The translations under genes were made by a program, and so were the position numbers. Shown here in pieces: positions 17,757 through 54,955 of a stretch of 64,000 nt of DNA. The stretch spans positions 19,912 through 83,911 of the forward strand of contig JACPPF010000046.1 in NCBI GenBank assembly GCA_016191165.1. The letters run 5' to 3'. The stretch's first letter is position 1. Each line of letters starts with the position of its first letter. The notes beneath the pieces were generated by a model that did not search any database, was not told the DNA's origin, and was given only the letters and a program-made list of their open reading frames with translations. The DNA is from Planctomycetota bacterium (GTDB lineage Bacteria > Planctomycetota > Planctomycetia > Gemmatales > Gemmataceae).

Positions 17757-20156
17757 ATGAACGCGACCATGTTGTTGGTGTGCCTCGCTGGCAGCGCGGT
17801 GACTGGTCAGGCGAACAAGCTGGTGTTCCAGGCGCCGCTGATCGACGTCTGGAGTCGGACGGAGGAGGGCCTGGAGTATCGCTACCTGATGCACAATCGG
17901 ACCTATCTGGGAAATAACTTTCTGAAGCCCGCGGCCAAGAAGGACTGGGGCAACCCCCGTGTTGATTTGAGCCGAATGCCCACGACCTATTGGCATGACA
18001 AGAGTCCGGTTGGCATGGTGTTGCAGAAGTTCAACTGGTTCCCTGGGCCGGAAAACACCTATCACGCGGATGCGCGTATGCCAGCCGCCATGATCGGCAT
18101 CGGGGGCAATCCGTGGGGCCAACTTGTCAATCTATGGTCGGAGCCGCCCTTTGCCGTTCTAGGCCTGGAAGTCGGCGCCATGGCGAGTTATGCGCGACCA
18201 GGGCAAACCATCCATTTCACCGAACGGGTACCGACGTTTGTCAAGTTGTCCCTGCCGGGCCAAGGAAAAACGCCGGTCTTTACCTATGTGCGGGATGCCC
18301 TTGATCGTGGCGCCAATCTGACGGTTTACCCCGGCGAGCCGCGGGCCATGATCGAGAAACATGGCGGGGAGAAGTTTTATCATGCGATCATCATTGAAAC
18401 GTACAAGTTTCCTGACTCGGTCGTGCATGACGAGCTGATGACCAAGGAAGCAATCACGATGCTCCTGGGCAAGCTGACCGAGGACGGTGTCCTTTGTTTT
18501 CATACGTCCAATCGGTTCTACGACCTCGTTGCCATCCTCGCCAGCGCCGCGGCGGAACTCCACCTGGGCTGCGTCGTCGGCAAGGACGCCCCCCCACGCG
18601 GCCAGCGAAGTACCCGCTTCGCGTCTGAATGGGTGATGATCGCCCGCAAACCGGCGTACCTGGCGCATTTGAAAGCGCCGGCAGGCGCCAAGGAGTTTCG
18701 GCCCTATTGGCAGACCCCCGATTTCGTTGACGACCGGCTGGTCTGGAACGACAAGGGAGAGAGATCGCTTCGAGGCGTCTATCGTTCCGATCCGGAGATC
18801 GACAAACTGCACAACAATATCTACGAACTCGAAGACTTCCTGCGCGCCAGGACGGGAATCCAACTCAACCCCTCTGGCGACCTGACTCGCTTTCTCCACG
18901 GTGTGATCGGCATCTTGAGCGATCGGTCGGCGCGCAGGAAAAACCGCGGGTTCGAAAAGGTCATCAACCGCGGCGACCGCAAGGTCGCCTTCGAAGCTCC
19001 GGGAATCCAGGTTATCACCACGAAGGACGAGGGGGCGGTCTATTCCTATCTGCTCTACGACGGCATCTATATCGGCCGAAGTTATCACCGACCCAGGGAT
19101 CCGGCGGCCCGCGGCGATCCAATACGGGACCGCAGCCGATTTCCCACGACGTATTTCCACGACAAGAGCCCTCTCGGCGTGCTTTTGCAAAAGTACAACT
19201 GGTTCCCCGGCGCAGAGAACACCTTTCATGCCGATGCGCGTTTGCCGGCCAGTCTCACGGGCATGGGGCTCGATCCACTCGGGCAGCTTACCCACCTCTG
19301 GTCGGAGCCGCCCATCGCAGTCGTCGGCATGGACGTGGGAACCGTTGCCAGCTACGCGCGCCCGGCCCAGGCGATTCATTTCTTCGAGCGTGTGCCGTTG
19401 TTCGTCAAGCTTTCTTCACCTGCAAAGGGCAAGCGTCCGCTTTTTCACTACCTCGAAGACGCACGGGCACGCGGCGCAGCGGTCTCGATTTTTCAGGGAG
19501 AGCCACGGCCAACGCTCAAGAAGCATGGCGGGGAAGGATTCTATCAACTGATCGTCGTCAACACCTACAAGGATGGCATTCGCACCGTCCACAAGGATCT
19601 GATGACCACGGAGGGCTTGCGCCTGCTGATGAGCCGAACACGGGCCGGAGGCGTCCTTTGTTTTCACACGTCAAATCGGTATTACGACCTGACGCCCATT
19701 CTCGCCAGCACGGCGAAAGAAGCCGGCTATTCCGTCGTCGTCGGCACGGATACGGCGACGTGGCCAGACGATCGGGATCGAGATCGCTTCACCTCCTGGT
19801 GGGTCATGGTGGCGCGCAAGCCAGCGGACCTGGCAGGCCTCAAGGCGCCGCCGGGATATGAAAAAGCACAACCCTGGAGCGATGCTCCTTTCTGGGTACC
19901 GCCGACCGGGATGGACGAGAAATTCATCTGGCGCGACAACGCGGAGAATTCCTTCCGCGGCGTCTATCGCTCCGATCCAACGATCGATTTATTCGGCAAC
20001 TCCGTTTCCAAGTTGACGAACTGGATTTCGGACAGCACCGGCATCCCGCAATACTCGATGTATCGGATGATGCAGCCGGTGCAGGAGGGCATCCGGGCCT
20101 GGAGTTCGCGTTCCGCACGGGAACTCAATCGTGAGCCGACCGCGCCCAAGAATTAG
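17757..20156 (+). CDS. Tandem-duplicated spermidine-synthase-like (class I methyltransferase fold) protein
   Basis: Two ~390-aa halves align end to end (LWSEPPFAVLGLEVGAMASYARPGQTIHFTERVP / LWSEPPIAVVGMDVGTVASYARPAQAIHFFERVP); GGAGGA RBS. Confidence 0.75.
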   Translation: MNATMLLVCLAGSAVTGQANKLVFQAPLIDVWSRTEEGLEYRYLMHNRTYLGNNFLKPAAKKDWGNPRVDLSRMPTTYWHDKSPVGMVLQKFNWFPGPENTYHADARMPAAMIGIGGNPWGQLVNLWSEPPFAVLGLEVGAMASYARPGQTIHFTERVPTFVKLSLPGQGKTPVFTYVRDALDRGANLTVYPGEPRAMIEKHGGEKFYHAIIIETYKFPDSVVHDELMTKEAITMLLGKLTEDGVLCFHTSNRFYDLVAILASAAAELHLGCVVGKDAPPRGQRSTRFASEWVMIARKPAYLAHLKAPAGAKEFRPYWQTPDFVDDRLVWNDKGERSLRGVYRSDPEIDKLHNNIYELEDFLRARTGIQLNPSGDLTRFLHGVIGILSDRSARRKNRGFEKVINRGDRKVAFEAPGIQVITTKDEGAVYSYLLYDGIYIGRSYHRPRDPAARGDPIRDRSRFPTTYFHDKSPLGVLLQKYNWFPGAENTFHADARLPASLTGMGLDPLGQLTHLWSEPPIAVVGMDVGTVASYARPAQAIHFFERVPLFVKLSSPAKGKRPLFHYLEDARARGAAVSIFQGEPRPTLKKHGGEGFYQLIVVNTYKDGIRTVHKDLMTTEGLRLLMSRTRAGGVLCFHTSNRYYDLTPILASTAKEAGYSVVVGTDTATWPDDRDRDRFTSWWVMVARKPADLAGLKAPPGYEKAQPWSDAPFWVPPTGMDEKFIWRDNAENSFRGVYRSDPTIDLFGNSVSKLTNWISDSTGIPQYSMYRMMQPVQEGIRAWSSRSARELNREPTAPKN

Positions 20157-36852: not shown

Positions 36853-36971
36853 AATCACGAAAACTCGAAAAAAAACACGAAACGAAATGCTTCAGGGAGT
36901 AATAGGGAAGGACGATAACAAGCCTCTTCCGCCTCCATTTCGTGTTTTCGTACTTTCGCGTTTTCGTGATT
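36853..36971. repeat. A/T-rich inverted repeat built from CACGAAAAC units
   Basis: AATCACGAAAACTCGAAA... pairs with ...TTTCGCGTTTTCGTGATT. Confidence 0.65.
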
Positions 36972-37020
36972 GAATCTTGTATCCGACCGGCGCAGGCCAT
37001 CCCTAAGGAGCCCACCACCC

Positions 37021-37761
37021 ATGGCGAGAGCCTCGGTGACGTTTCAGGTGTTGGAAGGAATTGATCGCGGGCGTGTTTACCGCGAGTTGCCAATCCCCGT
37101 GTCCATCGGCCGGGAGGAGGGCAACACGCTGCGCCTCAACGACGAACGCGTGAGCCGCTTCCACGCCAAGGTCCAGGTTGACGACGACGATTACATCTTG
37201 ACTGACCTGGAAAGCACGAACGGCACCCGGGTCAATGGTACCGCGATTCAGATACGCCGGCTGCGCGTGGGCGACCGGGTCGGCGTGGGCCGGTCGCTTT
37301 TGCTCTTTGGATCCAACGAGGAGATCGCCGCCCGGATGGCCAGTCTCGCTGGCGTCGGCGCAACACCTTCCCCGCTGGCCCTCGGCGGCGATGCCGAGCT
37401 TCTGGGCGAACCGAACAGCGATCGGCAGACGCTCGCCGGGCAACTTGATCTCAACCTCGATTTCGACGTCAACCTCGCCGAGCCAGCACGCCTGACATCC
37501 GACGCGCTTTTCATCGGCACCAAGGCATTGCCGCCGCTTCCGCTCAAGATGACCCCGTCGCAAGCCGCCCGTTTGGCGGAGATTCTCGATTACCTGCACC
37601 AGGGCCTGACCCAAGCGACGGAGAACATTCAGGCCAAGGACGACGGCACTCAGGTGACCCTCGATTACACCGACTGGCAGCGCGTGGTCGCGATTCAGAT
37701 GTTGCTCGCTCGCTATTTACGTCTGGTCGCCGACCCGCCGGAAATGGATGAGAAGGCTTGA
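37021..37761 (+). CDS. FHA-domain protein
   Basis: SIGREEGNTLRLNDERVSRFHAKV, DLESTNGTRVNG. Confidence 0.9.
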   Translation: MARASVTFQVLEGIDRGRVYRELPIPVSIGREEGNTLRLNDERVSRFHAKVQVDDDDYILTDLESTNGTRVNGTAIQIRRLRVGDRVGVGRSLLLFGSNEEIAARMASLAGVGATPSPLALGGDAELLGEPNSDRQTLAGQLDLNLDFDVNLAEPARLTSDALFIGTKALPPLPLKMTPSQAARLAEILDYLHQGLTQATENIQAKDDGTQVTLDYTDWQRVVAIQMLLARYLRLVADPPEMDEKA

Positions 37762-38418: not shown

Positions 38419-39090
38419 ATGTCGCAGGCTGAGATGAAAAAAAAAGGCGCCTGGAGGCAGGTTGCCGTGGTAACTGACAAAAAGAGTGTTCCGGTTGGTT
38501 CAAGCACATTGATGAGCGTTGACGGGGACCACTACATCGTGACCGTGAACGGTAAGCCGTTCCAGACAGGAAACGTGAAGGTTGAGGGCGAGCATTCCCC
38601 GCGGCAAGCGGACGTGATTGTTTCAGATGGGCCTCACGCGGGAAAAACCTTGTTGCTGATTTCCAAAGTCGAGGGAGACGTGTTGATATCGTGTATGGCC
38701 CCACCTGGAGCGCCGCGGCCAACGGAATTCAAAAGTGAACCAGGGAGCGGTCATACTCTCAGTGTCTGGCTGCGAACGGAATCCACCAGCGTCGCGCCGA
38801 TCGCGCCTTTGACTCGGAGAACGTGGTTAGCGTTGGGCGTCTTGGTCTTTCTGGCATTGATTGCCTGGTCGGCGCGAGGGGACCTGGAAAATAACGTCGC
38901 CCACTGGGCCGCCATGTTGGCGGGCGGGGTCGCCTGCATGCTTCTCATCACGGCCGTGGGCGTCTACTCGCGTTGGCCATTGCCGACGACCGTGGCTACG
39001 GGGCTCGGATTCACGATCGCGCTCGGCGTTTTGAGGAAGTGCGTGGAGCAGTCACACCGGCAATGGGTGAGTTTGGCGCTATTGTGGTAA
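38419..39090 (+). CDS. TIGR03067-like domain protein with C-terminal TM segments
   Basis: VSDGPHAGKTLLLISKVEGDVLISCMAPPGAPRPTEFKSEPGSGHTLSVWLR. Confidence 0.65.
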   Translation: MSQAEMKKKGAWRQVAVVTDKKSVPVGSSTLMSVDGDHYIVTVNGKPFQTGNVKVEGEHSPRQADVIVSDGPHAGKTLLLISKVEGDVLISCMAPPGAPRPTEFKSEPGSGHTLSVWLRTESTSVAPIAPLTRRTWLALGVLVFLALIAWSARGDLENNVAHWAAMLAGGVACMLLITAVGVYSRWPLPTTVATGLGFTIALGVLRKCVEQSHRQWVSLALLW

Positions 39091-39292: not shown

Positions 39293-41968
39293 TCAGTTGA
39301 TGGTGTAGATGAATTTCCCATCCGGCGAACCCGCGACGTGGACCGAGGTGATTGCCGTGCCTTCGACCGTACGGTTCAAGATTTCGCTCGCCATCTCCGG
39401 CAGCATCGTGCCGGTCAGGATGTGGTCCACGTTGCGAGCGCCGCTTTCCACTTCCTTGCATCGGCTCGTGATCGTCGTCACCAGGCTGTCGTCGTAGGTG
39501 AAATCGGCGCGGTGGTTCTCCTTCAAGCGGTCGCCGATCTTCTTCAGTTGCAGCTTCGTGATGTTCTGCAACATCTTGTCATCGAGCGGGAAATACGGCA
39601 CGATCGTGATACGGCCAAGCAGGGCGGGCTTGAACGACTTGAGCAGGTCAGGCCGCAGCGCCTGAGCAAGCGTTTCCGCATCGGGCTTGGTGTCGGGATC
39701 GGCACAGAGTTTCATGATGGTGTCGGTGCCGACGTTGGATGTCAGGATGATGATCGTGTTCTTGAAGTTGATGTCGTTGCCCGACGAATCCTGAAGCATG
39801 CCCTTGTCAAACACTTGATAGAAGAGCTCCTGAACGTCAGTGTGGGCCTTCTCGACCTCGTCGAGCAAGACGATGCAATAGGGTTTGCGGCGCACGGGAT
39901 CGGTGAGGGCGCCGGGCTCGCCGTAGCCGACGAGGCCCTTGGCGGAGCCGGTGAGGTTGGAGATTTTGTGCGATTCCTTGTATTCGGACATGTTGATGAT
40001 GACCATGTTGCGGTCGCCGCCGTAGAGGATATCGGCGAGTGACATGGCGGTTTCGGTTTTACCGACGCCGGACGGGCCGACGAGCATGAAGACGCCGATG
40101 GGCCGGCGCGGGTCGGTGAGGTTGGCGCGCGAGGTGCGGATGCGCTGAGCGATCGCCTCCAGGCCATGGTCCTGGCCGATGACGCGCTCCGCCATGCGGT
40201 CCTTGAGTGACAGAACGGCCTGAATCTCGTTGCGCACCATCTTGCCAAGCGGGATGCCGGTCCAGCCGGACACGACCGCGGCAATCGCCTGGCCGCCGAC
40301 GACGGGCAGCACCAGCGGGTCTTCGCCTTGCACCTCCATCAGCATCTTTTCGGCCTTGTTGAGTTCGGTGCGCGTTTCGAGTTCCTGGTCGCCGGTCAGG
40401 CGTTCCTTGGCGTCGGCCTTGGCGACCCGATGCGCGTCGAGCTTGGCGGCGAGCGCTTGCACTTGCTCGGCGAGTTTCTTTTCTTCCTCCCAGCGTTTTT
40501 CCAGCGCGGCGAGGTTCGCGGCGATGGCGGTCTTTTTCTCGTTCAGGTCGGCGGCGCGTTGCTTGTGATCGACGCCGTGGCTCGTCTCGCGGTCCAGGGC
40601 CGTGAGTTCGACATCGATGCGTTCGACATCGCGGCGGGCATCCTGGATGGCGGGCGGAATCGATGTCTGGCTCAGCGCGACGCGAGCGCAGGCCGTGTCG
40701 AGCAGGCTGACTGATTTGTCCGGAAGCTGACGATCCGTGATGTAGCGATGCGAGAGCTTGACGGCTTCCTCGACGGCCTCATCGAGAATGCGGACCTTGT
40801 GATGTTTTTCCATGGTGGCGGCGATGCCGCGCATCATGGCGATCGCCTTGGCGATGTCGGGCTCATCGACCTTGACGACCTGAAATCGGCGTTTGAGGGC
40901 GGGGTCGCCTTCGAAGTATTTCTTGTACTCCAGCCAGGTGGTCGCCGCGATGGTGCGCAATTCGCCACGGGCCAGGGCGGGCTTGAGCAGGTTGGCGGCA
41001 TCGCCCTGTCCCGCCTGGCCGCCGGCGCCGATCATGGTATGGGCTTCGTCGATGAAAAGGATGATCGGGGTGGGGGACGACTTCACTTCCTGAATGACGG
41101 TCTTCAGGCGATTCTCGAATTCGCCCTTCACGCCGGCGCCGGCTTGCAGCAAGCCGAGGTCGAGCGTGCGCAGGACGACATTTTTGAGAGGCGGCGGGAC
41201 ATCGCCGGCGACGATCTGTAGTGCGAACCCTTCGACGACCGCCGTCTTGCCGACGCCTGCTTCGCCCGTGAGGATCGGGTTGTTTTGCCTACGACGCGTC
41301 AGGATGTCGATGACCTGGCGAATCTCGAAGTCGCGGCCAATCACCGGATCGATCTTGCCCTGACGCGCCTGCTCGGTGAGGTTGGTCGTATATTGGTCGA
41401 GCGCTGGCGTTTTGCTGTTCGCCACCGCTCCCGGACTGCCACCGGTGGCACCGGGGCCGGCGGCAGGGCTGTCGCTGACGTCGTATTGATCCTCATTCAT
41501 TCCTTTAAGGAGGGTCGGCGCATCCTTGACGAATTGCTCGGCCGGGATTTTCGCGAAGCTCGGGCAGGCATCGAGCAATCGCCGCGAGAGTGTGGCATTT
41601 GCGAGCAAGGCGGCGACGAGGTAGCCGGTGCGGACCTTGAATGATTGGCAGTTGAGGGAGGTCACGACCCAGCCTTCACGCAGCCAGTCGAGGATGTCGA
41701 CGGACAGTTCGGGCGCCCGCGAGTTGCCGGTCTTGAGCTTGTCGAGCGCCTTGGTCAATTCGCGGACGGCGGCGCCGGTCTCGACGTCGTATTGTTTGAA
41801 GATGCGCGGGATATCGGAATCATTCGCTTCGATCATCTTCAACAAGAAGTGCTCAATCTCCACGCTGTAGTTGGTGCGCGACAGGCAGAGCCCGGCGGCG
41901 CTTTCGAGAGCCCGTTTGCACACGGGATTCAGTTTGCCGACCAAGGTTTTCAGGGGAAGCGAGGCCAT
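39293..41968 (-). CDS. tssH: Type VI secretion ATPase TssH (ClpV/ClpB family)
   Basis: Clp N-domain, two AAA+ modules (GEAGVGKTAVVEG; GPSGVGKTETAMSLADILYGG), DPVIGRDFEIRQ; GGAG RBS before ATG 41968. Confidence 0.9.
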   Translation of the reverse strand: MASLPLKTLVGKLNPVCKRALESAAGLCLSRTNYSVEIEHFLLKMIEANDSDIPRIFKQYDVETGAAVRELTKALDKLKTGNSRAPELSVDILDWLREGWVVTSLNCQSFKVRTGYLVAALLANATLSRRLLDACPSFAKIPAEQFVKDAPTLLKGMNEDQYDVSDSPAAGPGATGGSPGAVANSKTPALDQYTTNLTEQARQGKIDPVIGRDFEIRQVIDILTRRRQNNPILTGEAGVGKTAVVEGFALQIVAGDVPPPLKNVVLRTLDLGLLQAGAGVKGEFENRLKTVIQEVKSSPTPIILFIDEAHTMIGAGGQAGQGDAANLLKPALARGELRTIAATTWLEYKKYFEGDPALKRRFQVVKVDEPDIAKAIAMMRGIAATMEKHHKVRILDEAVEEAVKLSHRYITDRQLPDKSVSLLDTACARVALSQTSIPPAIQDARRDVERIDVELTALDRETSHGVDHKQRAADLNEKKTAIAANLAALEKRWEEEKKLAEQVQALAAKLDAHRVAKADAKERLTGDQELETRTELNKAEKMLMEVQGEDPLVLPVVGGQAIAAVVSGWTGIPLGKMVRNEIQAVLSLKDRMAERVIGQDHGLEAIAQRIRTSRANLTDPRRPIGVFMLVGPSGVGKTETAMSLADILYGGDRNMVIINMSEYKESHKISNLTGSAKGLVGYGEPGALTDPVRRKPYCIVLLDEVEKAHTDVQELFYQVFDKGMLQDSSGNDINFKNTIIILTSNVGTDTIMKLCADPDTKPDAETLAQALRPDLLKSFKPALLGRITIVPYFPLDDKMLQNITKLQLKKIGDRLKENHRADFTYDDSLVTTITSRCKEVESGARNVDHILTGTMLPEMASEILNRTVEGTAITSVHVAGSPDGKFIYTIN

Positions 41969-42005
41969 GTTATTCTCCACGTTTTTGGTGATGAGTCAAA
42001 TTACC

Positions 42006-42086: not shown

Positions 42087-43937
42087 TCAAAGCAGCGGAA
42101 TCTCGCCCGTTCGCGCGGGCCATTTTCGCAGCGGCGCCAGCGGCGTGTTGACAATTAACTCGGTGAACGAGTTTGAGGTAGCGTATAGACTCAGGAAGCG
42201 ATTGAGGACAGCGCTAAACAAAAAAGCACCGCGCAGCGGGAATTTGGTCGGGTCCAGTTCCACGGTCACCTCGACCCCGCGGCACAGGCCTCGCTTCGGA
42301 TCGCTTGGCACCCGGCCCAGGACGCGGCGGTAGTTGACATCGAGAAGGCCTTCGACGATTTGCAGGGCCTGATCCTTCAGATGCTTCTGTCCCGCCGCGG
42401 GGTCCGAAAAGTCGTAGAGCTTGAGAATATCCCGCAGAGCGGCCCGGCCGGGTATCCCTTCTTGCAACGACAACGGGTTGGGGGATAGATGCGAGATCAG
42501 CTCCCAGGCGCCGCCGGTGCGCGCCGCGGGGCGCAGCGGCGGCGTAGGGAAGCGCAGGCATTTCACTTCGCACGGGGCAGGCACGTCCAGCGTCCAGCCA
42601 ATCGCCGGGCGCGCGGCGGCGATGCGCGACGGCAGGTCGCGGTTCATGCACAAGATTTGCACGTCCAGCATCTCGTCGCTCGGCCAGCGCGTTTCAAAGT
42701 GGAGATTCACCAGGGCGAGATCGACTTCCGTGCCCGTGTCGTCTTCTTCCAGGGAACGTTGACGCGTCGTGTACCAAAAAATCCGTCCGCCGCGCGTGCC
42801 CTGGGCATGCTCCAGCGCGTAGAACGGCGGATAGTCGGTCGTGCGGTTGGCTGTCGGGTCCGTGCTGGTCACCTTCGTCACCGCATAGACCTCGAAGGAT
42901 TTCGGAGACATGCGGTCGGCCACGATGCGATACGCCGCCTGTCGCGGCCGAAGCGGGATCGGCTCAACCGTCTTGTCAAACAGATTGACCACCGGCGTGC
43001 AGCCAAGCCGAAACGTTTCGGTGTTCACGCCCTGTTCGAGAGCCTTGGAGGTATTCTTGCAAAAGATGTACACGTCGCACTTTCGACCCAGACCGGCGCG
43101 GTTGGAAAGTGTCTGCCAGCCTGTGAGGTCGATGAATTGAAATTTTGCGGGGAACGTGAAAAACTCGGTAAACAGGCGATAGCCCATGCGAGCATTTTCA
43201 GAATAGGGGAGTAATCCCTCCGCGGGCCCAAATCCAACGGAGTGTAGAGAGTTTTCAGGGTTCAGGGCGACGGGGGTGTTGCTCGTGGCGGCCTTGTCGG
43301 GCACGAAAACAACCTGGATCGCGTCGTTAAGAATGATCTCGTACAGATCGGGGACGAGTTGCGGATCGCCGTGCAGAAACAAGCGCAAGGCATCGATCTG
43401 AAGTTGCGCGAACGTCAACTCGCCCACGCATTCGAGTTCCAACCGAACCGCGGCCACGGCGCCGGCGGGCGGTTGCAACCCGGAAGGGAACGGCGGCGCG
43501 CGAAAGCTCGCTCGATTCAAGCGGATCGGCCACAACCTCACCGGGTAGGCGGTGCGAAACTTGCACGCGATCGGCTCGGTAGCCGCTTCGATCAGGCTGC
43601 CGCGGTCGATCAGGAAACCGCCTGGCATTTGAACGCGGGCCGGGTCGCTCTCGAATTGCAGCAAAGCCATGGACGGAATCGGCGCGAGGAAGTGCGGATA
43701 AAGGAACTGCAACAGGCCGTCGGTGAGTTCAGGATATTCGTCCTCGATCTTGGCGTGCGTGCGGCCGGCCAGGAGCGCGAACGTTTCGAGCAAGCGTTGG
43801 ACGTAGGGGTCGGAACTGCCGGTCGCCTCGATGCCGAGTCGCTGGGCCGCGTTGGGATGACGCCGCGCGAACTCCTGGGTTAGCAGGTTGATGTAGCGGA
43901 GTTCGCGCTCGTAGTAGGGGAAGAGGTGGTCGATCAT
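42087..43937 (-). CDS. tssF: Type VI secretion baseplate subunit TssF
   Basis: YYERELRYINLLTQEFARRHPNAAQRLG, PYVQRLLETFALLAGRTHAKIEDEYPELTDGLLQFLYPH. Confidence 0.92.
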   Translation of the reverse strand: MIDHLFPYYERELRYINLLTQEFARRHPNAAQRLGIEATGSSDPYVQRLLETFALLAGRTHAKIEDEYPELTDGLLQFLYPHFLAPIPSMALLQFESDPARVQMPGGFLIDRGSLIEAATEPIACKFRTAYPVRLWPIRLNRASFRAPPFPSGLQPPAGAVAAVRLELECVGELTFAQLQIDALRLFLHGDPQLVPDLYEIILNDAIQVVFVPDKAATSNTPVALNPENSLHSVGFGPAEGLLPYSENARMGYRLFTEFFTFPAKFQFIDLTGWQTLSNRAGLGRKCDVYIFCKNTSKALEQGVNTETFRLGCTPVVNLFDKTVEPIPLRPRQAAYRIVADRMSPKSFEVYAVTKVTSTDPTANRTTDYPPFYALEHAQGTRGGRIFWYTTRQRSLEEDDTGTEVDLALVNLHFETRWPSDEMLDVQILCMNRDLPSRIAAARPAIGWTLDVPAPCEVKCLRFPTPPLRPAARTGGAWELISHLSPNPLSLQEGIPGRAALRDILKLYDFSDPAAGQKHLKDQALQIVEGLLDVNYRRVLGRVPSDPKRGLCRGVEVTVELDPTKFPLRGAFLFSAVLNRFLSLYATSNSFTELIVNTPLAPLRKWPARTGEIPLL

Positions 43938-44008: not shown

Positions 44009-44791
44009 TCAGGCCGGGAACTCCAGTTTGCGCCAATCAAGGAGGCTCATTTCTTCGTCCCCGACGAAGAAGATTTTCACACCGACCCCGCGAACAGGGG
44101 AGTCGCCGCGCCAGTCGGTCAGCCGGCCGAGTTTCAGTTGCGTGTCCGTCTCCTTCTCCGTGCCTGGATAGAGAGCGGGCAGAAAAACCGAGCCGGCATC
44201 GCCCTGTCGCATTTCCAGGTGGGCCGGGATCCACAAGAGATCACGCGGAAAACGCGGCGCGTTCATCGTCAGCATCTGGATCTGCTCAAAAGGAACCCAG
44301 AAATAACGGCCCTGTGAAAAAACTTCCAGGACGGAACCCAGGCAATCGTCGCCGTCGCGCAGCGAGTCGAACGGCTTGCCGTCAAGCGTTCCCTTGAGTT
44401 CGGGTAATGCATCGTTCGCCTTGGCAAACGCCGCTTGCGCCTCGGCGGGCGCGTTATCGGCGAGTTTGAGCAAGCCCAGCAGACGGTCGCGCACATGCTC
44501 CGGCGGCTCCATCAAGAACTCCGGCTGGACCTTGTTGCCAAAGACCTCCCGCCGAGAACGTTCCGCAGCCAGGATTTTGCGATAATCGAGTAGCGCGGTC
44601 GCGATTTCGGGTTGATCGGCCTGCATGGCGTCGATCTGTTTCTGAGCGCGGTCCAGGTCGCCGGAAAACGCGAATAATTCAAAGAGAAAAAGCCGGGCGC
44701 CCTGATCGATGGGTTTCGCCTTCACGACGGCAATCTGGGCATCGATGGCCTCGGCGAGTTTTCCGGCCTTGTAGAGTTGATTGGCATCCAT
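44009..44791 (-). CDS. tagJ: Type VI secretion accessory protein TagJ/ImpE
   Basis: TPR-like N-terminus plus ImpE-type C-terminus (GSVLEVFSQGRYFWVPFEQIQMLTMNAPRFPRDLLWIPA). Confidence 0.85.
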   Translation of the reverse strand: MDANQLYKAGKLAEAIDAQIAVVKAKPIDQGARLFLFELFAFSGDLDRAQKQIDAMQADQPEIATALLDYRKILAAERSRREVFGNKVQPEFLMEPPEHVRDRLLGLLKLADNAPAEAQAAFAKANDALPELKGTLDGKPFDSLRDGDDCLGSVLEVFSQGRYFWVPFEQIQMLTMNAPRFPRDLLWIPAHLEMRQGDAGSVFLPALYPGTEKETDTQLKLGRLTDWRGDSPVRGVGVKIFFVGDEEMSLLDWRKLEFPA

Positions 44792-44895: not shown

Positions 44896-45405
44896 TTACT
44901 TCGCTTCTTCAGCAGGCTTTTCCTTGGCGAGCGCGTCCATCGCTTTTTGGGTATTGCTGAGCACGTCGGCGAGCAATTCCTCGACCTTGTCATTGCCTTC
45001 CATTTTCGACTGAAGGTAGGTTAGCCGCTGCCGCATTTCCAGCAGTTCCTTGAGCGCGGGAATCTGCGCTGCGACCTGGGCGGGTTCGAAATCGTCCAGG
45101 TGTTTGAAGTTCAATTCGACCGCCAGCTTCGAATCCTCGTCGGTGAGCTTGTTTTGCACTTTCATGGCGACGCGGGGCGTGGCGCCGGCGAGCACATCGT
45201 TGAAATTGTCTCTGTCGATCATGACCATCTTGCGGTCCTTGAGTGGTTTCAGCGGCGCCTTGGGCGCGCCGGACAGATCGGCGAGCACGCCCACCACAAA
45301 CGGCAGCTCCTTCTTTTCCATGGCGCCGCCGGTCTCCACATCATAGGTGATTTGGACGCGCGGACGCCGTACCCGATCCAGTTTCTTTTGTTGACTCTCC
45401 GCCAT
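44896..45405 (-). CDS. tssB: Type VI secretion contractile sheath small subunit TssB
   Basis: RVRRPRVQITYDVETGGAMEKKELPFVVGVLADLSG; KDRKMVMIDRDNFNDVLA. Confidence 0.92.
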   Translation of the reverse strand: MAESQQKKLDRVRRPRVQITYDVETGGAMEKKELPFVVGVLADLSGAPKAPLKPLKDRKMVMIDRDNFNDVLAGATPRVAMKVQNKLTDEDSKLAVELNFKHLDDFEPAQVAAQIPALKELLEMRQRLTYLQSKMEGNDKVEELLADVLSNTQKAMDALAKEKPAEEAK

Positions 45406-45587
45406 GATGAACCTCCCGGGCCGATGGGATCGGCCGAAACCTGTTGAATTCGCCAAAAAAACCATGACTTTCGTTGACGACTGTCCTAACATCGAAAATG
45501 CGTGACCGGTATTTTATCGGCGGTGAAATGGTATAACAGGGAAATCTGGCGTTTTTTCAAAAATTGTGTGCCGCACCCAATATCCGC

Positions 45588-45638
45588 GCCCGAAGCGTGA
45601 GCGAAGAAACGCCAATCTCCTTCGCTTACGCTTCGGGC
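45588..45638. repeat. REP palindrome, GAAGCGTAAGCGA family, in tssB/tssK divergent intergenic region
   Basis: GCCCGAAGCGTGAGCGAAG / CTTCGCTTACGCTTCGGGC. Confidence 0.85.
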
Positions 45639-45674
45639 TCAGACGATCACGAAAAACACACGACGGAGGGACTC

Positions 45675-47108
45675 ATGGCGTCACTTGGAGTGTATTGGCA
45701 CGAAGGCATGTTCCTGCGGCCCCACCACTTCCAGGCCGCGTATCGGCACACCGTGGACCACAATCGGCGCAATCACCAGTGGGACGTTCACTACAACTGG
45801 GGCCTGCGTTCCATGGACCTCGACGAGGACGCGCTGCGAAATCATCGGCTCGTCATCCACGCGCTGGAGGCGCGCCTCCGGGACGGCACGCCAGTGATCG
45901 TCCCGCGCGATGGATTACTGCCGGCCCTCGATTTGCGGCCGGTGTTTCAGGACAAGGAAGCGAGGCAATTCTACATTCGGCTGGCCGTGCCCGCGCTGGC
46001 GTCGGGCCGGCGGAACCTGTCAGTCGATCCGGATGCGCGCATACGCTACTACCAGGACCTGGCCGAGATGGAGGATGAAAACAACGGCGGGAACCCGCAG
46101 CCGGTTCCCGTGCGCATGTTGAACATGCAGCTAATGGCCGGCAATCAAGACGCGACGGGGTACGAGACGTTGCGGATCGCCCGCCTGGAAAAGTCCGCCC
46201 AGGCGGACGCCGGTCCTCAACTCGACCTCACCTACATCCCGCCGCTCCTGAGTTGTGACGCGTGGAAGCCGCTGTCCAACGGCATCCTCCGCACTCTCTT
46301 TGACCGCTTGACCATCAAGATCGACTGGCTGGTCCAGCAGATTGCCACGCAGGGCATCACTTTCGATCGGCAAGCCCCCGGGGATGCACTGGTGTTGAGG
46401 CAACTCCAACAACTTAACGAGGCGAGCGCCACACTTGGGATGATCGCCGCCGCGCCTGGCGTGCATCCCTTGTCCGCCTTCATGGAACTGAGCCGGATTG
46501 TCGGCCAGCTGGCAATCTTCGGCGCCACCCGGCGTCCGCCCGATCTGCCGCGCTACGATCACGACGATCTGGGAACCTGTTTCACGGACATCAAACAGTA
46601 TCTTGACAGGCAACTTGACATTGTCCAGGAGCCAGAATACAAGGAACGCCCCTTCATCGGCGCCGGGCTGCGAATGCAGGTCAGCCTGGAGCCAGCCTGG
46701 CTGGATGCGGCGGCCCAAATCTTCATCGGCGTGCAAACCAAAAACCTCGATGCGCCCCAGTGCGTGTCCCTCTTGACCAAGGCGGGCCAACTGGACATGA
46801 AAATGGGTAGTTCCGATCATGTTGACGAGTTATTCCGGCAAGGCGCGGCGGGCCTGCGTTTTTTGGCCGAGCAACTGCCTCCCGCCGCTCTCCCCAAGGT
46901 TCCGGGACAGGTATATTTTCAAGTCATGGCCGATCCCAAGAATCCGGAATGGGTAAACGTGAAAAACTCGCTGTCGCTGGCCTTGCGTTTCAACGAAAAC
47001 CTCATCGTGGGCGGCATTCAGAACCAGCGCAGCCTCACCGTAAAGACCCAGGGGCGCAATGTGCCGATTCAGTTTTCGCTCTACGTGTTGCCTGGAAAAA
47101 AAACATGA
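45675..47108 (+). CDS. tssK: Type VI secretion baseplate subunit TssK
   Basis: VYWHEGMFLRPHHFQ N-terminal signature; LRDGTPVIVP; DDLGTCFTDIKQYLD. Confidence 0.92.
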   Translation: MASLGVYWHEGMFLRPHHFQAAYRHTVDHNRRNHQWDVHYNWGLRSMDLDEDALRNHRLVIHALEARLRDGTPVIVPRDGLLPALDLRPVFQDKEARQFYIRLAVPALASGRRNLSVDPDARIRYYQDLAEMEDENNGGNPQPVPVRMLNMQLMAGNQDATGYETLRIARLEKSAQADAGPQLDLTYIPPLLSCDAWKPLSNGILRTLFDRLTIKIDWLVQQIATQGITFDRQAPGDALVLRQLQQLNEASATLGMIAAAPGVHPLSAFMELSRIVGQLAIFGATRRPPDLPRYDHDDLGTCFTDIKQYLDRQLDIVQEPEYKERPFIGAGLRMQVSLEPAWLDAAAQIFIGVQTKNLDAPQCVSLLTKAGQLDMKMGSSDHVDELFRQGAAGLRFLAEQLPPAALPKVPGQVYFQVMADPKNPEWVNVKNSLSLALRFNENLIVGGIQNQRSLTVKTQGRNVPIQFSLYVLPGKKT

Positions 47109-47296: not shown

Positions 47297-50200
47297 ATGC
47301 CTGAAGCTCCCACGCCCGACTGGCGCGACAGTGGCAACACTCCCGCCCAGACCCCCAGCGCCAAACCCTGGCAAGCCGGCGCGACCAGCGCCGAGGCGGG
47401 CCCCTCGGCCATGCCGTCGAAACGAAGCTTCAAACGGCTCTTTGCCGTGGTCGCGCTATTGGGCCTGGCCGTCGGCATCGGCGCGGTCGTCTATTGGTTC
47501 CGCCCCATCAAGCCGGCCTGCCTCGTCCTCGTTGGGTCCGGGTATGAAACCAACCTCCTTCTGCCTCACAACGTCCACGGCTGGAACAGCCTGCATGTCC
47601 TCGAAAAAGCAGTCTCACAGGGCGGCGAACTCCCGGATCTGTGGCGTTTCTTCACCCAACCCACCAAGATGCGCCGCGTCGGCGCCGAACCCGTCGAGCT
47701 AAAAGAAGCCAACTGGCGAGCCGTGTGGGACAAGCTCGGCATCGCCAACTACGAGGAAAAGACCGTCATGGTCTTCCTGTCCGTCCACGGGGCTGCCGAT
47801 GCGAAGGAAGCCTACCTCCTGCCCAACGTCCCCGGCAAGCAAATGTTGGAATCCTTCGATCAAAGCCGAATTCCGTTTCAAGAGGTTCTCGACAGCCTGA
47901 AGGCGGTCAAGGGCAAGAAGATTGTCCTCCTCCTTGACGTCTGTCATGCGCCGTTCGATCAGAACACGGGGATGTTGCACAACGATTTCGCGGAGCGTTT
48001 GAAGACCAAGTACGAAAAGGAGATTGAGGCCACGCCTCACCTGGCGGTGATCTGCTCGGCCGACACGGATCAACGCTCCTGGGCCTCGGATGAGCTGCAA
48101 GCCACTGCCTTTGCCTATTACGTCATGCAGGCGTTGAAAGGCGCCAACCATGGCAAGGACGGCAACGTCACGGCGGGGAGTTTGTTTGACTACGTGAAAG
48201 ACAAGGTGGCAACCTGGGCGCGGACCAACCGAGCCAGAAGCCAGACGCCGTTTTTGCTGGGCGGGAAGGATCGCGCCGATGGGATGGACCTCGTCCATAT
48301 TGCCGAGCCGTATGTCGAGCCGGCGCCCCCGTCGGCGCCGCTGAACCTCGACGCCCTGGCGCCGGAATGGGAAAAATGGAAGAAACTCAAACGGGAGAAG
48401 GCGCCGCACGTTCACAATCCGCACCTGTGGCGCTTGTACCAGGACACGCTGCTGCGCTATGAGCAACTCCTCCGCGCAGGCGATCCGACAGGCAAAGCCG
48501 CGGCCAGCCTCAAGCCAAGCCTCGAAAAATTGAACAGCGACATCGCCGCCAGCCGTTCTCTCGATGGCGCATTCCCCTGCATGGTGAACAGCTTCCCGTT
48601 GTACCGCGTCCTGGGGTTCCAGCCGGCGCCTGACCTGAATGACAAGGCTCTCAACATCTTCCTGACCGATTTTCGTAATCTCGCGGATCAAAAAGGCAAG
48701 GAGGAGGAAAAGAAGAAGCTGTTGACCTTTTTCCGGGACAAATCCATCCAGGTCAAGCAATACGTGCGAGTTCGCGTCAACCAGATGCTGTTGAAGGATT
48801 GGCAAGCCAACGCCAGCCCGGACCAGGCCAAACGTAACCGCGAACAAGGGCAGGATCGCCTGGCGGAAATCGAAGATTATTTGGTTGCGAAGCAACGGCC
48901 CGTCGAAATGCAACTCGTGAAAATGCTCAGGGACGTCGACCCGGAGATGCCCGAGGAGGTCATTCAGGCCGCCCTGGCGGTTCGCGTTCTTGCCGAGGAG
49001 GTGGCGTTGAGCGCGATGGCGGACGCGGATTCGGCCGAGCAGCCGAGCGAACTTTACGCCGAGGTCATTTTCCCGTGGGTTCGCGCCGGCGTCGAGGCGG
49101 CAGATAAAAGTCGTCGGGAAGGTGAAGATTATCTTTTTGGCGATCCCAAGCTCCACGGACCGAAGGCGAAGGCGAAGTTCGCTGAGGCGAAGAATCTTTA
49201 TGAAAAGGCGCGCGCCATGGCCCAGAAGCTTCAGGTTGCCCTGGCGGTGCGCGATGAGGTTTCGGCGGATTTGCCCTACTTTGCCACGTGGCTGGCGAGA
49301 AATCCACCCCTGCCGGATGCCGACCGGGCCGATTTGGGGGAAGCCCTTGAGAAGTTGAGCGTCGGGCTGGCCAAGTTGAACCGCGCTCTGGATGCCGCGG
49401 ACCGGGCAGAACTTCCGGCGCCGGACCTGGCGCGGCAGGCGGCCAGCGACCTCAAGTTTTTGCGCGAACGCTTTCAGGATGTAGGCGATAACTTGCGGAC
49501 CGTGGCGGCGCAGCAGAAAAACTGGCATGCTCTCGATGCGGCCCTTTCGGCGCCGCCGTCCGGCGCCCGCGACGACGTCGCCCTGCGCAAGGGTTTGCTT
49601 CGCAAACTGCGGGACATTTCCAGCGCTTTGCTCTTGAACCCGAACCCCGATGGCCGCATCGAGGAGGAAGGGTCCGTTGAACAACGAGTCAAGCAGCGGC
49701 GCGAACTGGCCCGCATTTCACTCAAGGCGTTTGACGACCTCGGGAACCCTGACAAGGAAAACACCGACGCCCAGCTCCGCGATTTCTTCCTGAAGGCCCC
49801 GGGATCCATCGTCGCCAAGACCGTTTTGGCCGGCGGCGAGGGCGCGGACCTCGTTCGGGCCGCGAATCTGTGCCGGGTAATTCCGGGCGGTTATGCCGAT
49901 TTCGTCAAGGACGATACGGGTCGGCGGATCAATCCGCTTGACCGACTGCGTCGCCTGCGCACCCACGCGCTCCTGCTTGGCCTTGCCGAGCGGACCCTCG
50001 GCGACCACTGGTTTGAACCTGGAATCAAAAAACTCGACCCCTACTATCAAGTCGCGGGGAAGGATTACCTCAAGGCGGCACGCGGGCTCTTTGACGACGA
50101 GCCGATCCCCGACGCACTCGTGAAAAAATCAAACAGCCTCAACGAGAAACTAATCCTGACCGAACTGAAACTGGGCAAACTCGGCACCCGGCACTGGACG

Positions 50201-52222
50201 ACCGAGTCGGATTTCGATCTCCCGTATCACGTGACCGCAGACGACGGGCTGCCCAGAGGAACGCCGATGATCTGGTTGAAAGTGGGCAGCGAGCCGGCCA
50301 AAAAATCCGGCGGCCCACGCAAAGAAATGAAGACCTGGCCCAAATTCAGCGACGCCTTCCCGCTCGGTCAAATCGACATTCCCGCGACCGGCGCCGCGCA
50401 AGTTGAGCTGAATGCCTACTACCGCGGGCAACATTTGCGGCAGGATTCCCCCTACGAACGGCTGGAGCCGAACGTCATCGTCCGGCACGCGCCCGCGCTG
50501 GAGGCCAACACGCGCCTCGCGGTGCGCATGGATTCCAAATTCGATTACGGCGCCATCAGCATCGTGCTTGACAACTCCGGCAGCATGAAATACCGCCATC
50601 CCCGGGAGGGGGGCAAGGACGATTACGCGAACCGCAAGGCGAATCAGCGCCGGCGATTCGATTTCGCACTCGACGCCCTGGAGCACGTGCTGCGAAAGGT
50701 CCCCGAAAACACCTACCTCAGCCTCTTCACCCTGGGCGACAAGAAAAACCGGGTGCCCGCGCTCTATCGCCCGGCCCGGCGCTGGCGCCAGGAGGAATTC
50801 GACGGGTTGCGCAAGGAACTGGCGGAAATCCCTGCCGACATCGGCTCACCGATCGCCGAGGCCGTGATCAAGAGCATGGCGGAAGGCTTCCCCGAAGGCA
50901 AGTTCCGGGGTCCCAAGGTGATTCTCGTGCTCACCGACGGCGACGACAACGGCTCGTTTTTCAAGGAAGAAGGCAACCGCACCAAGCGCATCGTTGCCGA
51001 ACTCAAGGCCGCCAACGCGAAACATCCCGACATCGCGGTCGTGGTCGTATGTTTCATCAAGAAGGACGCCGACGAAAAAGCCAAGAGCGAATTTGAATCC
51101 GCCAAGGCTCAATTTGGGTGCGTCGAACAATTCAAACGTCCGGGCCGCTTCACCGACCAGCCGGACGCGGAGAAGCTCGGCACGACGATCGAAGAGATGA
51201 TCCGGCCGCGCGTGCAGCTACTTCGCCTGGCGGAACAGGATCCCATCAAGGGTTTCGAGGTCGGGTATCCGATCAACTATCACTTCGACAAGACCCTGAA
51301 CTGGATACCGGCCCGGTCAGGTATTTTCAACGCCCACGTCCTGCGGACTTCCGCCAACCCGCTAGTCAACGTGCAGATTCTGCCCGGGCAAAAAATGTTC
51401 ATGGTTCTTAATCGAACCGACGAGGATCTCTCACTCAAACGCGGACTGCTCGCCTTCCAGCCCGAAACGATCAAACGGGGGGAATGGCGCCGGGAGAAGG
51501 AAGGCTGGGTGGTTTCGCTTTTGGAAAACGAGCATCCCGGTCTGGGCAAAGGCATGTTGAAGCAGCTGCTGGCTTTTGAGAAGTTGAAGGATGACAAGGA
51601 TCGCATTCGTCAGCCGGTTCCGGGGCTGACGTGGATCGAGCTCGACGCGGTCAAAAGCGCGTTGCCGAACCAGACCTTGCGCATGTGGCGGGACTGGGAC
51701 GTGCCGGCGCCCGCCATGCGTTTGGAGATTCGCGACTGGGTGGTCGGCGTACAGCCCAAGGTTGCCGCCTGGTTTTGGCCTGGCGATCGCGATAGCCTCC
51801 TGGCCAACACCAAACTGGTCACACGCAAGCAGGTGCCGGTGCCGCTTGCCCGCGAATCGGGTGGCGACGCAGTGGAGCTTCCCGTGATCGAAGAGGTCAA
51901 CTGGAAGGAACGCAACATCGAGGTCGCCTCCGGCGGCACGAAAAAGGAATTCTGCCTCATGGTGCGCGTTCGCCATGCCAGGGGCAAGCCGGTCTGGGTC
52001 GATCTCGAAACGCGCGAGCCAGGCAACGGTTCCGAACATCACTACTTCCACAAGGCCGACAGTTGCACCACCTATTTTTACGGCATGGAAAAACCCACGA
52101 CCGCCCGCCTGGTCCTGATCGATTTGGCCGAGTTCAAGGGCGTGGCCGAGGGCGTGGCGATGTCGCCGGATGTTGTCATTCAGGCGCCGCCCATTTTCCT
52201 CAACCAGGCACGGAAGGATTAG
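47297..52222 (+). CDS. Caspase-like (C14) / von Willebrand A membrane-anchored protein, ~1641 aa
   Basis: One N-terminal TM; caspase-like VMVFLSVHGAAD and KKIVLLLDVCHAPFD, p10-like ICSADTDQRSWASDEL; vWA MIDAS-like VLDNSGSMKYR and VILVLTDGDDNG. Confidence 0.8.
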   Translation: MPEAPTPDWRDSGNTPAQTPSAKPWQAGATSAEAGPSAMPSKRSFKRLFAVVALLGLAVGIGAVVYWFRPIKPACLVLVGSGYETNLLLPHNVHGWNSLHVLEKAVSQGGELPDLWRFFTQPTKMRRVGAEPVELKEANWRAVWDKLGIANYEEKTVMVFLSVHGAADAKEAYLLPNVPGKQMLESFDQSRIPFQEVLDSLKAVKGKKIVLLLDVCHAPFDQNTGMLHNDFAERLKTKYEKEIEATPHLAVICSADTDQRSWASDELQATAFAYYVMQALKGANHGKDGNVTAGSLFDYVKDKVATWARTNRARSQTPFLLGGKDRADGMDLVHIAEPYVEPAPPSAPLNLDALAPEWEKWKKLKREKAPHVHNPHLWRLYQDTLLRYEQLLRAGDPTGKAAASLKPSLEKLNSDIAASRSLDGAFPCMVNSFPLYRVLGFQPAPDLNDKALNIFLTDFRNLADQKGKEEEKKKLLTFFRDKSIQVKQYVRVRVNQMLLKDWQANASPDQAKRNREQGQDRLAEIEDYLVAKQRPVEMQLVKMLRDVDPEMPEEVIQAALAVRVLAEEVALSAMADADSAEQPSELYAEVIFPWVRAGVEAADKSRREGEDYLFGDPKLHGPKAKAKFAEAKNLYEKARAMAQKLQVALAVRDEVSADLPYFATWLARNPPLPDADRADLGEALEKLSVGLAKLNRALDAADRAELPAPDLARQAASDLKFLRERFQDVGDNLRTVAAQQKNWHALDAALSAPPSGARDDVALRKGLLRKLRDISSALLLNPNPDGRIEEEGSVEQRVKQRRELARISLKAFDDLGNPDKENTDAQLRDFFLKAPGSIVAKTVLAGGEGADLVRAANLCRVIPGGYADFVKDDTGRRINPLDRLRRLRTHALLLGLAERTLGDHWFEPGIKKLDPYYQVAGKDYLKAARGLFDDEPIPDALVKKSNSLNEKLILTELKLGKLGTRHWTTESDFDLPYHVTADDGLPRGTPMIWLKVGSEPAKKSGGPRKEMKTWPKFSDAFPLGQIDIPATGAAQVELNAYYRGQHLRQDSPYERLEPNVIVRHAPALEANTRLAVRMDSKFDYGAISIVLDNSGSMKYRHPREGGKDDYANRKANQRRRFDFALDALEHVLRKVPENTYLSLFTLGDKKNRVPALYRPARRWRQEEFDGLRKELAEIPADIGSPIAEAVIKSMAEGFPEGKFRGPKVILVLTDGDDNGSFFKEEGNRTKRIVAELKAANAKHPDIAVVVVCFIKKDADEKAKSEFESAKAQFGCVEQFKRPGRFTDQPDAEKLGTTIEEMIRPRVQLLRLAEQDPIKGFEVGYPINYHFDKTLNWIPARSGIFNAHVLRTSANPLVNVQILPGQKMFMVLNRTDEDLSLKRGLLAFQPETIKRGEWRREKEGWVVSLLENEHPGLGKGMLKQLLAFEKLKDDKDRIRQPVPGLTWIELDAVKSALPNQTLRMWRDWDVPAPAMRLEIRDWVVGVQPKVAAWFWPGDRDSLLANTKLVTRKQVPVPLARESGGDAVELPVIEEVNWKERNIEVASGGTKKEFCLMVRVRHARGKPVWVDLETREPGNGSEHHYFHKADSCTTYFYGMEKPTTARLVLIDLAEFKGVAEGVAMSPDVVIQAPPIFLNQARKD

Positions 52223-52303
52223 CGACGCTGCGAAAAAGCCTGGCCCGCGACGGCATTTCGAAGCGTCGCCAACCATGGGAAGCCAACTCGAGGAATTCGA
52301 CGC

Positions 52304-54955
52304 ATGGCCGATGACGCTCGTTCCGGGGCCGGGGATCGCCGCTGGCAGAACCAGGCCGGCCCGGCTGCCGGGCCGGCGCGCGGCATGAGCCGCCGCTTCT
52401 GGTTGACCCTCCTCGCCGGCCTGTTCCTCGTGTTCTTGACTGTCCTGGTCGTTTGGATTCTCGCCATCCGGCCCCCGCCGCCCCCTCCCTTCTACCTCAA
52501 CATCAGCATTGGCGAGACCAACTCTCGCAAGTATCCCGTCATTGGATTCACCCGGCAAGATTATGAGCGCATCCGACGTCACTTCCCCCAGGGAACGCTG
52601 GCCGAAACCAAGACCAAGGAACTGCTTCAAAAAGAACTGAAGGGGCTCTCTGACAAGGCCGACCCGATCATCATTCACATCACGGCCCTGGCCCTTGCGC
52701 GCCAGGAAAAGGTCTTTCTGTTGCCAGGCGACGCCAGTCCGGATGATCAGGCGACCTGGCTGGACGTTGGCGACGTCTTGAGCGCCGTCGCCGCCTGTCC
52801 GGCCAAGAACAAGCTGTTGATCCTTGACCTCGCGCACCCGATTGCCGATCCACGCCTTGGTGCGCTGGCGGACCGCGTGGCCGAGACCCTGGAAAAACAA
52901 ATCACCGATGCCAAGCCGAGTTTTTTCGTGCTCCTTCCCTGTTCCGCCGGCCAGATCTCGTGGAGGTCGGAAGCGCTTCAGAGTTCGGTATTGGCCTATT
53001 ATCTGGACCAGGGCTTGCTTGGAAATGCCAACACCGACAAGGATCCGCACGTCAAACTGCGCGAGCTGGTCGCCTTCCTTGAGGCACGCGTGGATCGGCG
53101 CGTTCAGACAACCCACGCCGCGAGGCAAAAGCCTCGCCTGTTCGGTGATGCCGAGGACTTTGTCATGGTAAGTCCTCCCAACGACCCGCTCGAGGAAATC
53201 AAGCCCGGTGATTTGGCGCCCTTTCCGGCGGTCCTTCAAAAAACGTGGCGCGAACGCGATGCGTGGTGGGCCAAGGGGGCCTATCGACGCGCACCGCGGT
53301 TCTTGCGGCAACTGGAGGCCAACCTGTTGCGGCAGGAGTCGCAATGGCGTGGCGGGATTCTCCACGAAAAAGACCTCGAGGCCCATGCGGATGATCTTCA
53401 GTTGCCCAGGAATGATTTGGCCCGCGCTCTGAATGTGCCGCGCGTGCCGCGCCGGTCCGTGGCCCTGGCGTTGAAACAGAGTCTGAAAGCAGCGGACGCC
53501 AGTCTGGGTGATGCCGCGCTCAATATCCTGGCCAACACCAAGTCGGTCGATCCAAAAAAGAAAGAACTCAACGCCAAGGTCGAGGAGGAGCTGATCAAGA
53601 AGTTGAAGGAACCCAAGGGCATCGAACTGCCGCAGCAAATGTCGGCCATTCTGGAAGCGCTGGAGCGCATGCCGCGACTGTCGGCGGATCATTTTCGAGT
53701 CGCGCGCGCCGTGGCGCGGAAGTTGTCGCCCGATGCGTCCTACGTGGAGTTGATCTATCTGGATCGACTGATCGCCTTCGCCGACCGCAAGGGCGATGAC
53801 GCCTGGCATGAGAAAAAGATTCTGACGTTGCTGCAAACGATGCGTATGCGTGAGGCCGCCGTGGCTGGGCTGGACAGCGAACCGGAACTGCTGCCGTGGT
53901 TGCACGGCGCGATCGAGGAAGCCGACTCCCTCCGTGTGGCGAGCGAAAAGAAACTGCTCTGGGAGGGCATGTCAACCTGGGACGACGCGTTCGCTCGGCT
54001 TCAGACTGCCAAGGGGAAATACAAGGACGTTCTGTTTGCCTTCGAGATCCTGCAGCGCTCCCGTGTGCAACTCGATTTGGCGTTTGCCGACCTGCCTGCT
54101 CACCGCGATCTGTTGTGCGACGCGTCGGGACTCGACGTCCTTGCTGAACAGGCCTGGACCCGGGCAAGCCAGGAAGCCGAGACGCTGCAAACCTACTTTG
54201 CGTCGCCGCCAATGCGGGACAAGAAACAGGCCGATCAGGGCAAGGCGACGCTGGATCTCGACACGCCGGCGCGAGAGCTGGAACGCCATCTGCGCTTTCT
54301 GGCCAAGAGCATTGAACGCCAGATCGACCTCGCCGCCAAGGACGACACGGCCGAATCGGTACAGCGCCGCTTGCTGCTGCTGGATTCAACCTTGTTGACG
54401 GCGGCGCAACACGCGACCCTGTTTGCCAGGCACCGCGCGGTTGCCGCCAAGCTGAACGAGGCGACCGACGAGTTGGATAACGACGATAACAAAAAAGGCG
54501 TCGTGACCCCTCTACCCCCGGCGGTGCGGCGCGACCAGCCCGCCACGCGCGGCTTGATGCGGGCGCGCATGTCGTGGGCGCTATTGCGCCTCGCGGGAAC
54601 GAAGGCCGGCAAGGAGAAACCGTCGCTTCCGCCCGCGACTGGCCGCATGGATACGCTCGCCTGGGCCGAACTCGAACGACGCATGCAAAAAGCCTGGTCC
54701 AGGGACCTCGTGGACCCCGGGAAAGAAAAGCTGACGCCGTTCCGCGCCGACGCCTTCAATCGCCTGGTCTCCCCGTGGGAACTGGAACGGTTCGAGAAGG
54801 ATCCCAGTGTCGTCGTGCAGACCCGCTATCGCGACGCCTTTCGGGCTTGGCTGCATGAACGCTATCGGGCCCAAGCCACATTTCTTGAAGGTGGGCGCGA
54901 CACCTCCTTGCACGCATTTTACGCTGACGCGGCACGCGAACTGAACGCGCGGTGA
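52304..54955 (+). CDS. Membrane-anchored caspase-like paralogue lacking the His/Cys dyad (pseudo-caspase), 883 aa
   Basis: Aligns to the 47297 protein: IIIHITALALARQEKVFLLPG, NKLLILDLAHPIAD, VLLPCSAGQISWRSEALQSSVLAYYL; N-terminal TM; no vWA region. Confidence 0.7.
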   Translation: MADDARSGAGDRRWQNQAGPAAGPARGMSRRFWLTLLAGLFLVFLTVLVVWILAIRPPPPPPFYLNISIGETNSRKYPVIGFTRQDYERIRRHFPQGTLAETKTKELLQKELKGLSDKADPIIIHITALALARQEKVFLLPGDASPDDQATWLDVGDVLSAVAACPAKNKLLILDLAHPIADPRLGALADRVAETLEKQITDAKPSFFVLLPCSAGQISWRSEALQSSVLAYYLDQGLLGNANTDKDPHVKLRELVAFLEARVDRRVQTTHAARQKPRLFGDAEDFVMVSPPNDPLEEIKPGDLAPFPAVLQKTWRERDAWWAKGAYRRAPRFLRQLEANLLRQESQWRGGILHEKDLEAHADDLQLPRNDLARALNVPRVPRRSVALALKQSLKAADASLGDAALNILANTKSVDPKKKELNAKVEEELIKKLKEPKGIELPQQMSAILEALERMPRLSADHFRVARAVARKLSPDASYVELIYLDRLIAFADRKGDDAWHEKKILTLLQTMRMREAAVAGLDSEPELLPWLHGAIEEADSLRVASEKKLLWEGMSTWDDAFARLQTAKGKYKDVLFAFEILQRSRVQLDLAFADLPAHRDLLCDASGLDVLAEQAWTRASQEAETLQTYFASPPMRDKKQADQGKATLDLDTPARELERHLRFLAKSIERQIDLAAKDDTAESVQRRLLLLDSTLLTAAQHATLFARHRAVAAKLNEATDELDNDDNKKGVVTPLPPAVRRDQPATRGLMRARMSWALLRLAGTKAGKEKPSLPPATGRMDTLAWAELERRMQKAWSRDLVDPGKEKLTPFRADAFNRLVSPWELERFEKDPSVVVQTRYRDAFRAWLHERYRAQATFLEGGRDTSLHAFYADAARELNAR

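Follow-up and report, generated by a model that had tools for sequence, protein, structure and literature searches.

A caspase-fold protein pair with a vWA module as candidate T6SS membrane-complex components in Planctomycetia with a shortened TssM

The 64,000-nucleotide stretch of Gemmataceae DNA analysed here (the window) carries two large, adjacent genes on the forward strand, P1 (47297..52222, 1641 aa) and P2 (52304..54955, 883 aa), both of which lie where an earlier note on this DNA had placed them; open reading frames (ORFs) were called by the longest-ORF rule. The two are separated by 81 bases, and 188 bases separate P1 from the upstream, same-strand tssK, the gene for the T6SS baseplate-membrane adaptor (45564..47108; TIGR03353, 261 bits), for which the listed start is a TTG and the true start may be internal. 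Further upstream, on the reverse strand, profile matches identify tssB (sheath small subunit, 44896..45492), a tagJ/ImpE-type T6SS accessory gene (44009..44791), tssF (baseplate, 42087..43937) and tssH/ClpV, which encodes the sheath-recycling ATPase (39293..41980; TIGR03345, 1247 bits). Judged by these matches, the genes upstream of P1 and P2 are a T6SS cluster. On the 3' side of P2, an LptF/LptG-type permease and an AsmA-like protein are encoded on the opposite strand. Other T6SS genes are dispersed in the window's genome, with tssC on contig C14 and tssL and tssM together on C150.

P1 begins with a predicted transmembrane helix (residues 48-66, 47438..47494, N-terminus inside), followed by a caspase-like (C14) domain (47762..48250), a long helical arm, a vWA domain (50561..50941) and a beta-rich C-terminus, all on the forward strand. 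P2, on the same strand, likewise has a predicted N-terminal transmembrane helix (residues 37-55, 52412..52468, N-terminus inside), a pseudocaspase domain (52481..53173) and a long helical arm. P1 matches Pfam Peptidase_C14 over the cut-off (E=1.2e-6) and VWA_2 under it (E=1.8e-4), and P2 gives a trace match only to C14 (E=0.029); sequence-profile searches of the PDB returned weak, uninformative matches. The AlphaFold model of P2 (pLDDT 87.7, pTM 0.85) resembles caspase and MALT1 structures with a Foldseek probability of 1.00, while that of P1 residues 561-1641 (pLDDT 82, pTM 0.59) passes from the helical arm through a vWA fold to the beta-rich end, the vWA resembling known vWA structures, also with a probability of 1.00. 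The caspase fold of P1 is assigned from its Pfam C14 match together with the caspase-like model of the homologous P2. The two proteins align pairwise (E=2e-16) and, since all of P2 aligns with residues 1-933 of P1 when profiles are compared (HHalign 100%, 1.8e-98), the similarity past the caspase part, noticed earlier from the letters, is real; by this comparison, P2 is a paralogue of the N-terminal ~930 residues of P1. The earlier note's proposals of a caspase fold in both proteins, a vWA in the first and a membrane anchor on each are supported by domain matches, models and topology prediction.

At the positions of the caspase dyad, P1 has His164 (CAC, 47786-47788) and Cys216 (TGT, 47942-47944) and P2 has Thr127 and Ala177, the same substitutions that the note had described. 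From these it had proposed an active protease paired with a catalytically dead regulator, and our survey of orthologues upheld the loss of the dyad in P2 but not its conservation in P1. None of 39 P2 sequences has the dyad (two have the Cys but no His), and together with the AlphaFold and Foldseek results this makes P2 a caspase fold without its dyad. Among the 37 P1 orthologues that cover the caspase site, the His is found in 30, the Cys in five, and both in five, namely the P1 of the window and those at L046, L047, L120 and L121. The P1s nearest to that of the window (L045 and L048) have Ser for Cys, and Ser, Thr, Ala, Gly and other residues occupy this position elsewhere. The MIDAS of the vWA, by comparison, which in the window is the motif DNSGS at residues 1092-1096 (50570-50584), is intact in all 40 P1 orthologues that cover the domain (DxSx[S/T], T/S, second Asp). 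Because so few orthologues keep the dyad and all keep the MIDAS, proteolysis is not the conserved function of P1; this pattern of residues points to a caspase-like domain that acts as a scaffold over most of the family, and to selection that keeps the vWA metal site. An active/dead protease pair was therefore rejected as a family-wide design, and finding the His/Cys pair intact in a single sequence does not show that a protease is conserved.

P1-P2 operons are repeated across Gemmataceae and in other families of the class, consistent with the pairing that had been proposed for the two genes. P2 occurs in two forms, short (about 880 aa) and long (about 1470-1640 aa). The short form is usually followed by a third gene, P3, that encodes 620-760 aa with an Ig-like (CarboxypepD_reg/SdrD_B) end, and P3 corresponds to the C-terminal half of long P2 (HHalign 5e-118). 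That the two are split in some genomes and fused in others suggests a joint function for P2 and P3. No P3 adjoins P1 and P2 in the window; in the same genome P3 lies on contig C178, where it is followed by vgrG, and is 51% identical to the P3 of the nearest relative. The window's genome also holds a second P2, a long form with a P3-type C-terminus (L065:8587-14034, contig C159 of G000) whose listed ORF has 1815 aa and which lies away from other T6SS genes; the P1 search found no second P1 in this genome. Long vWA ORFs from other classes (L131-L134) were rejected as P1, the match being confined to the vWA.

The distribution of these genes follows that of TssK. With P2 called present at E<=1e-11, a threshold chosen, like the others, after the tables had been seen, P2 was found in 39 of the 47 TssK-positive genomes of Gemmataceae versus 4 of the 48 TssK-negative ones (Fisher p=3e-14, kinship ignored). 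Two of these four P2-bearing genomes (G034 and G093) have TssL, and the remaining two are incomplete assemblies; many of the genomes surveyed are drafts. In the other families of the class, long P1 was present in 12/15 TssK-positive versus 0/24 listed TssK-negative genomes (p=1e-7, kinship again ignored). The three class members that are TssK-positive without a long P1 match (G232, G289 and G458) may encode a P1 too divergent to match, or may use another kind of membrane complex. P1 and P2 also directly adjoin tssK or tssL-tssM at several loci (L045, L046, L047, L050, L062, L079 and L082, among others). P1 and P2 are, therefore, genetically associated with core T6SS genes, and the link to secretion drawn in the earlier note holds through both the T6SS neighbours and the co-occurrence with TssK. 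Several genomes have two TssK per TssL, one adjoining P1/P2 and the other adjoining TssL-TssM (G000 C38, C63; G066 C17, C24, C97; G042 C78, C138; G043 C81, C560; G065 C25, C52), which may mean that two separate systems coexist or that a single machine uses both TssK.

TssL was found in 50 of the 95 Gemmataceae genomes, and TssM in these bacteria is short. IcmF_C was detected in 0/95 genomes of the family and 0/15 T6SS-positive genomes from the other families of the class; in other classes it occurs in 23/65 T6SS-positive genomes, mostly within ORFs of 1100-1350 aa. When 13 family genomes were tested, all 13 had an IcmF-related_N match over the cut-off, in ORFs of 517-659 aa, and none had a match over the cut-off to PF06761. 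Nine short TssM proteins (494-611 aa) each have at least two transmembrane helices near the N-terminus and another at the extreme C-terminus, the ORFs stopping within about 25 residues of this third helix (TM3). Short TssM aligns with residues 17-454 of full-length TssM, in which TM3 lies at 435-453 (HHalign 98.6%), and the ~690 residues that follow TM3 in the full-length protein have no counterpart. Because the chain stops at the third transmembrane helix, TssM here is without its periplasmic domain, a shortening checked by ORF length in the 13 genomes and by topology in the nine proteins. It represents a natural separation of the cytoplasmic from the periplasmic roles of TssM. At one locus (L050:13820-17211), tandem genes that adjoin tssL and tssK encode two short TssM proteins, one of 566 aa and one of 555 aa, each with an IcmF-related_N match.

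Hydropathy and positive-inside bias predict a single transmembrane helix near the N-terminus of both P1 and P2, flanked by positive residues on its cytoplasmic side, and in nearly all P1 and P2 orthologues a single N-terminal helix is preceded by an excess of Lys/Arg. Since the helix is N-terminal and the Lys/Arg excess lies before it, the rest of each protein should be extracytoplasmic. Several separate P3 proteins have a hydrophobic N-terminal segment, which in the P3 of L081 resembles a signal peptide, and we predict that P1, P2 and P3 are periplasmic. The short tails left in the cytoplasm carry W[RKQ] motifs. That of P1 has two (47318..47374, forward strand), DWR at residues 8-10 and PWQ at residues 24-26, and one (Trp14) lies upstream of the transmembrane helix of P2. 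At least two such motifs are found in 19/26 P1 tails, compared with a mean of 1.9 and a maximum of 8 for shuffled tails, and at least one in 20/33 P2 tails, compared with a shuffled mean of 8.2 and maximum of 16; kinship was ignored in both comparisons. Our guess from these motifs is that the tails serve docking.

Taken together, these data lead us to consider it reasonably probable that P1, P2 and P3 belong to the T6SS membrane complex in Planctomycetia and that they replace the periplasmic half of TssM with proteins that are not its homologues. On the opposing side, profile-profile comparison revealed no similarity of P1, P2 or P3 to the periplasmic part of TssM (HHalign probability <1%), and there are no T6SS proteins among the Foldseek matches listed for the C-terminal half of P1 and for P2. 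P1 and P2 would each be anchored by one inner-membrane helix and might engage the cytoplasmic machine through the short Trp motifs in their tails. The periplasmic part of the channel would be formed by their caspase-fold and helical-arm domains, while the vWA of P1, through its MIDAS, and the Ig-like end of P3 would link subunits to one another or to the outer envelope. Whether the whole amounts to an undescribed membrane complex, in which TssM supplies the membrane and cytoplasmic half while a pseudocaspase-arm pair, a vWA and an Ig-like module make up the periplasmic channel, we regard as an evenly balanced question. Five TssK-positive genomes of the family, some of them incomplete, have no convincing P2, and this also counts against replacement. 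If the proposal is true, a protease (caspase) fold has been turned to structural use in a secretion channel. P1, P2 and P3 are concrete candidates, open to testing, for what TssM lacks.

The proposed complex would share with TssJLM, through its component TssM, a T6SS that has both TssL and TssM, an anchor in the inner membrane, a large (predicted) periplasmic part and genes that adjoin tssK. It would differ in that TssM here is without its periplasmic half, and in that P1, P2 and P3 are proteins of their own, not homologous to TssM, which bring caspase-like, helical, vWA and Ig-like domains. Our search of the open-access literature turned up no account of a T6SS membrane complex from planctomycetes, and the only replacement complex outside Proteobacteria that we found described in the papers covered is that of Bacteroidota. 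The membrane complex of the Bacteroidota T6SS(iii), TssNQOPR, includes TssR, which has a vWA, and TssP, which has PKD-like domains (PMC10781749). It provides a precedent for what we propose: both cases would be a lineage-specific, multi-protein substitution of canonical membrane-complex parts, and both, judging from published domain descriptions, would place vWA and Ig-like domains in the envelope. However, Planctomycetia have kept TssL and, of TssM, the N-terminal half, and P1, a single-pass protein of 1641 aa with a caspase-like domain, is unlike the lipoprotein TssR, which has about 790 aa.

The main rival to replacement of the TssM periplasmic half is a sensor role. Here P1 would sit in the envelope, perceive a signal from the periplasm or from contact through its vWA, much as has been put forward for the vWA of the T6SS kinase PpkA, and set off T6SS firing as a sensor or gatekeeper, with P2 as partner. 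The conserved MIDAS suggests that the vWA may bind a ligand or metal, the short tails with W motifs could relay a signal, and PpkA of the P. aeruginosa H1-T6SS is a transmembrane protein whose vWA sensor domain is extracellular (PMC3224232). Like PpkA, P1 is linked to T6SS and is predicted to cross the membrane once and to expose its vWA on the outside, but it is much larger, is paired with P2 and is without a kinase domain. Indeed, neither P1 nor P2 has a kinase or any other output domain, and the cytoplasmic tails are merely about 35-60 residues long. The two genes are, moreover, almost as widespread as TssK, which is core-like rather than regulatory, and sensing would not account for the periplasmic half that TssM has lost. 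For these reasons, we think a sensor unlikely.

We think it less likely again that P1 is an active C14-type protease controlled by a dead P2, the pair having an effector, immunity or cell-death function. The P1 of the window does retain its His/Cys pair and exceeds the Pfam C14 cut-off, and four orthologues also have the dyad, so putative activity is conceivable in some lineages. Yet the dyad is absent from 32/37 P1 sequences, including the two nearest relatives. P1 and P2 have the fold of bacterial C14 caspases (metacaspases/orthocaspases) but differ from them in that the dyad is gone from most P1 and all P2, and in that the domain is predicted to be extracytoplasmic and is fused to helical arms and, in P1, to a vWA; against the NCBIfam model caspase_w_EACC1, P1 scores 43.6 bits, far below the cut-off of 140. 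An effector, immunity or cell-death role also fits poorly with the predicted extracytoplasmic position of the domains, with co-occurrence with core T6SS genes rather than toxin modules, and with a TssM that is without its periplasmic half. The earlier interpretation of the pair is, then, supported in part and for the most part wrong. Least probable of all is that P1 and P2 are general envelope proteins found in or near T6SS loci by chance and with no role in secretion, since, even though many genomes have the pair on contigs without other tss genes (e.g. L055-L057) and T6SS genes are scattered in the window's genome, co-occurrence with TssK is strong both within the family and in the other families of the class, and adjacency to different tss genes is repeated.

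Three other genes of the window merit mention. An FHA-domain protein is encoded near tssH (36970-37761) and may have a role in T6SS regulation. Between this gene and tssH lies a 223-aa ORF (38419-39090) that matches no Pfam family and has hydrophobic stretches towards its C-terminus. Finally, a 799-aa protein (17757-20156), also without a Pfam match, has an apparent internal duplication of a ~400-aa unit, the two halves having motifs in common such as DKSP.G..LQK.NWFPG.ENT.HADAR.
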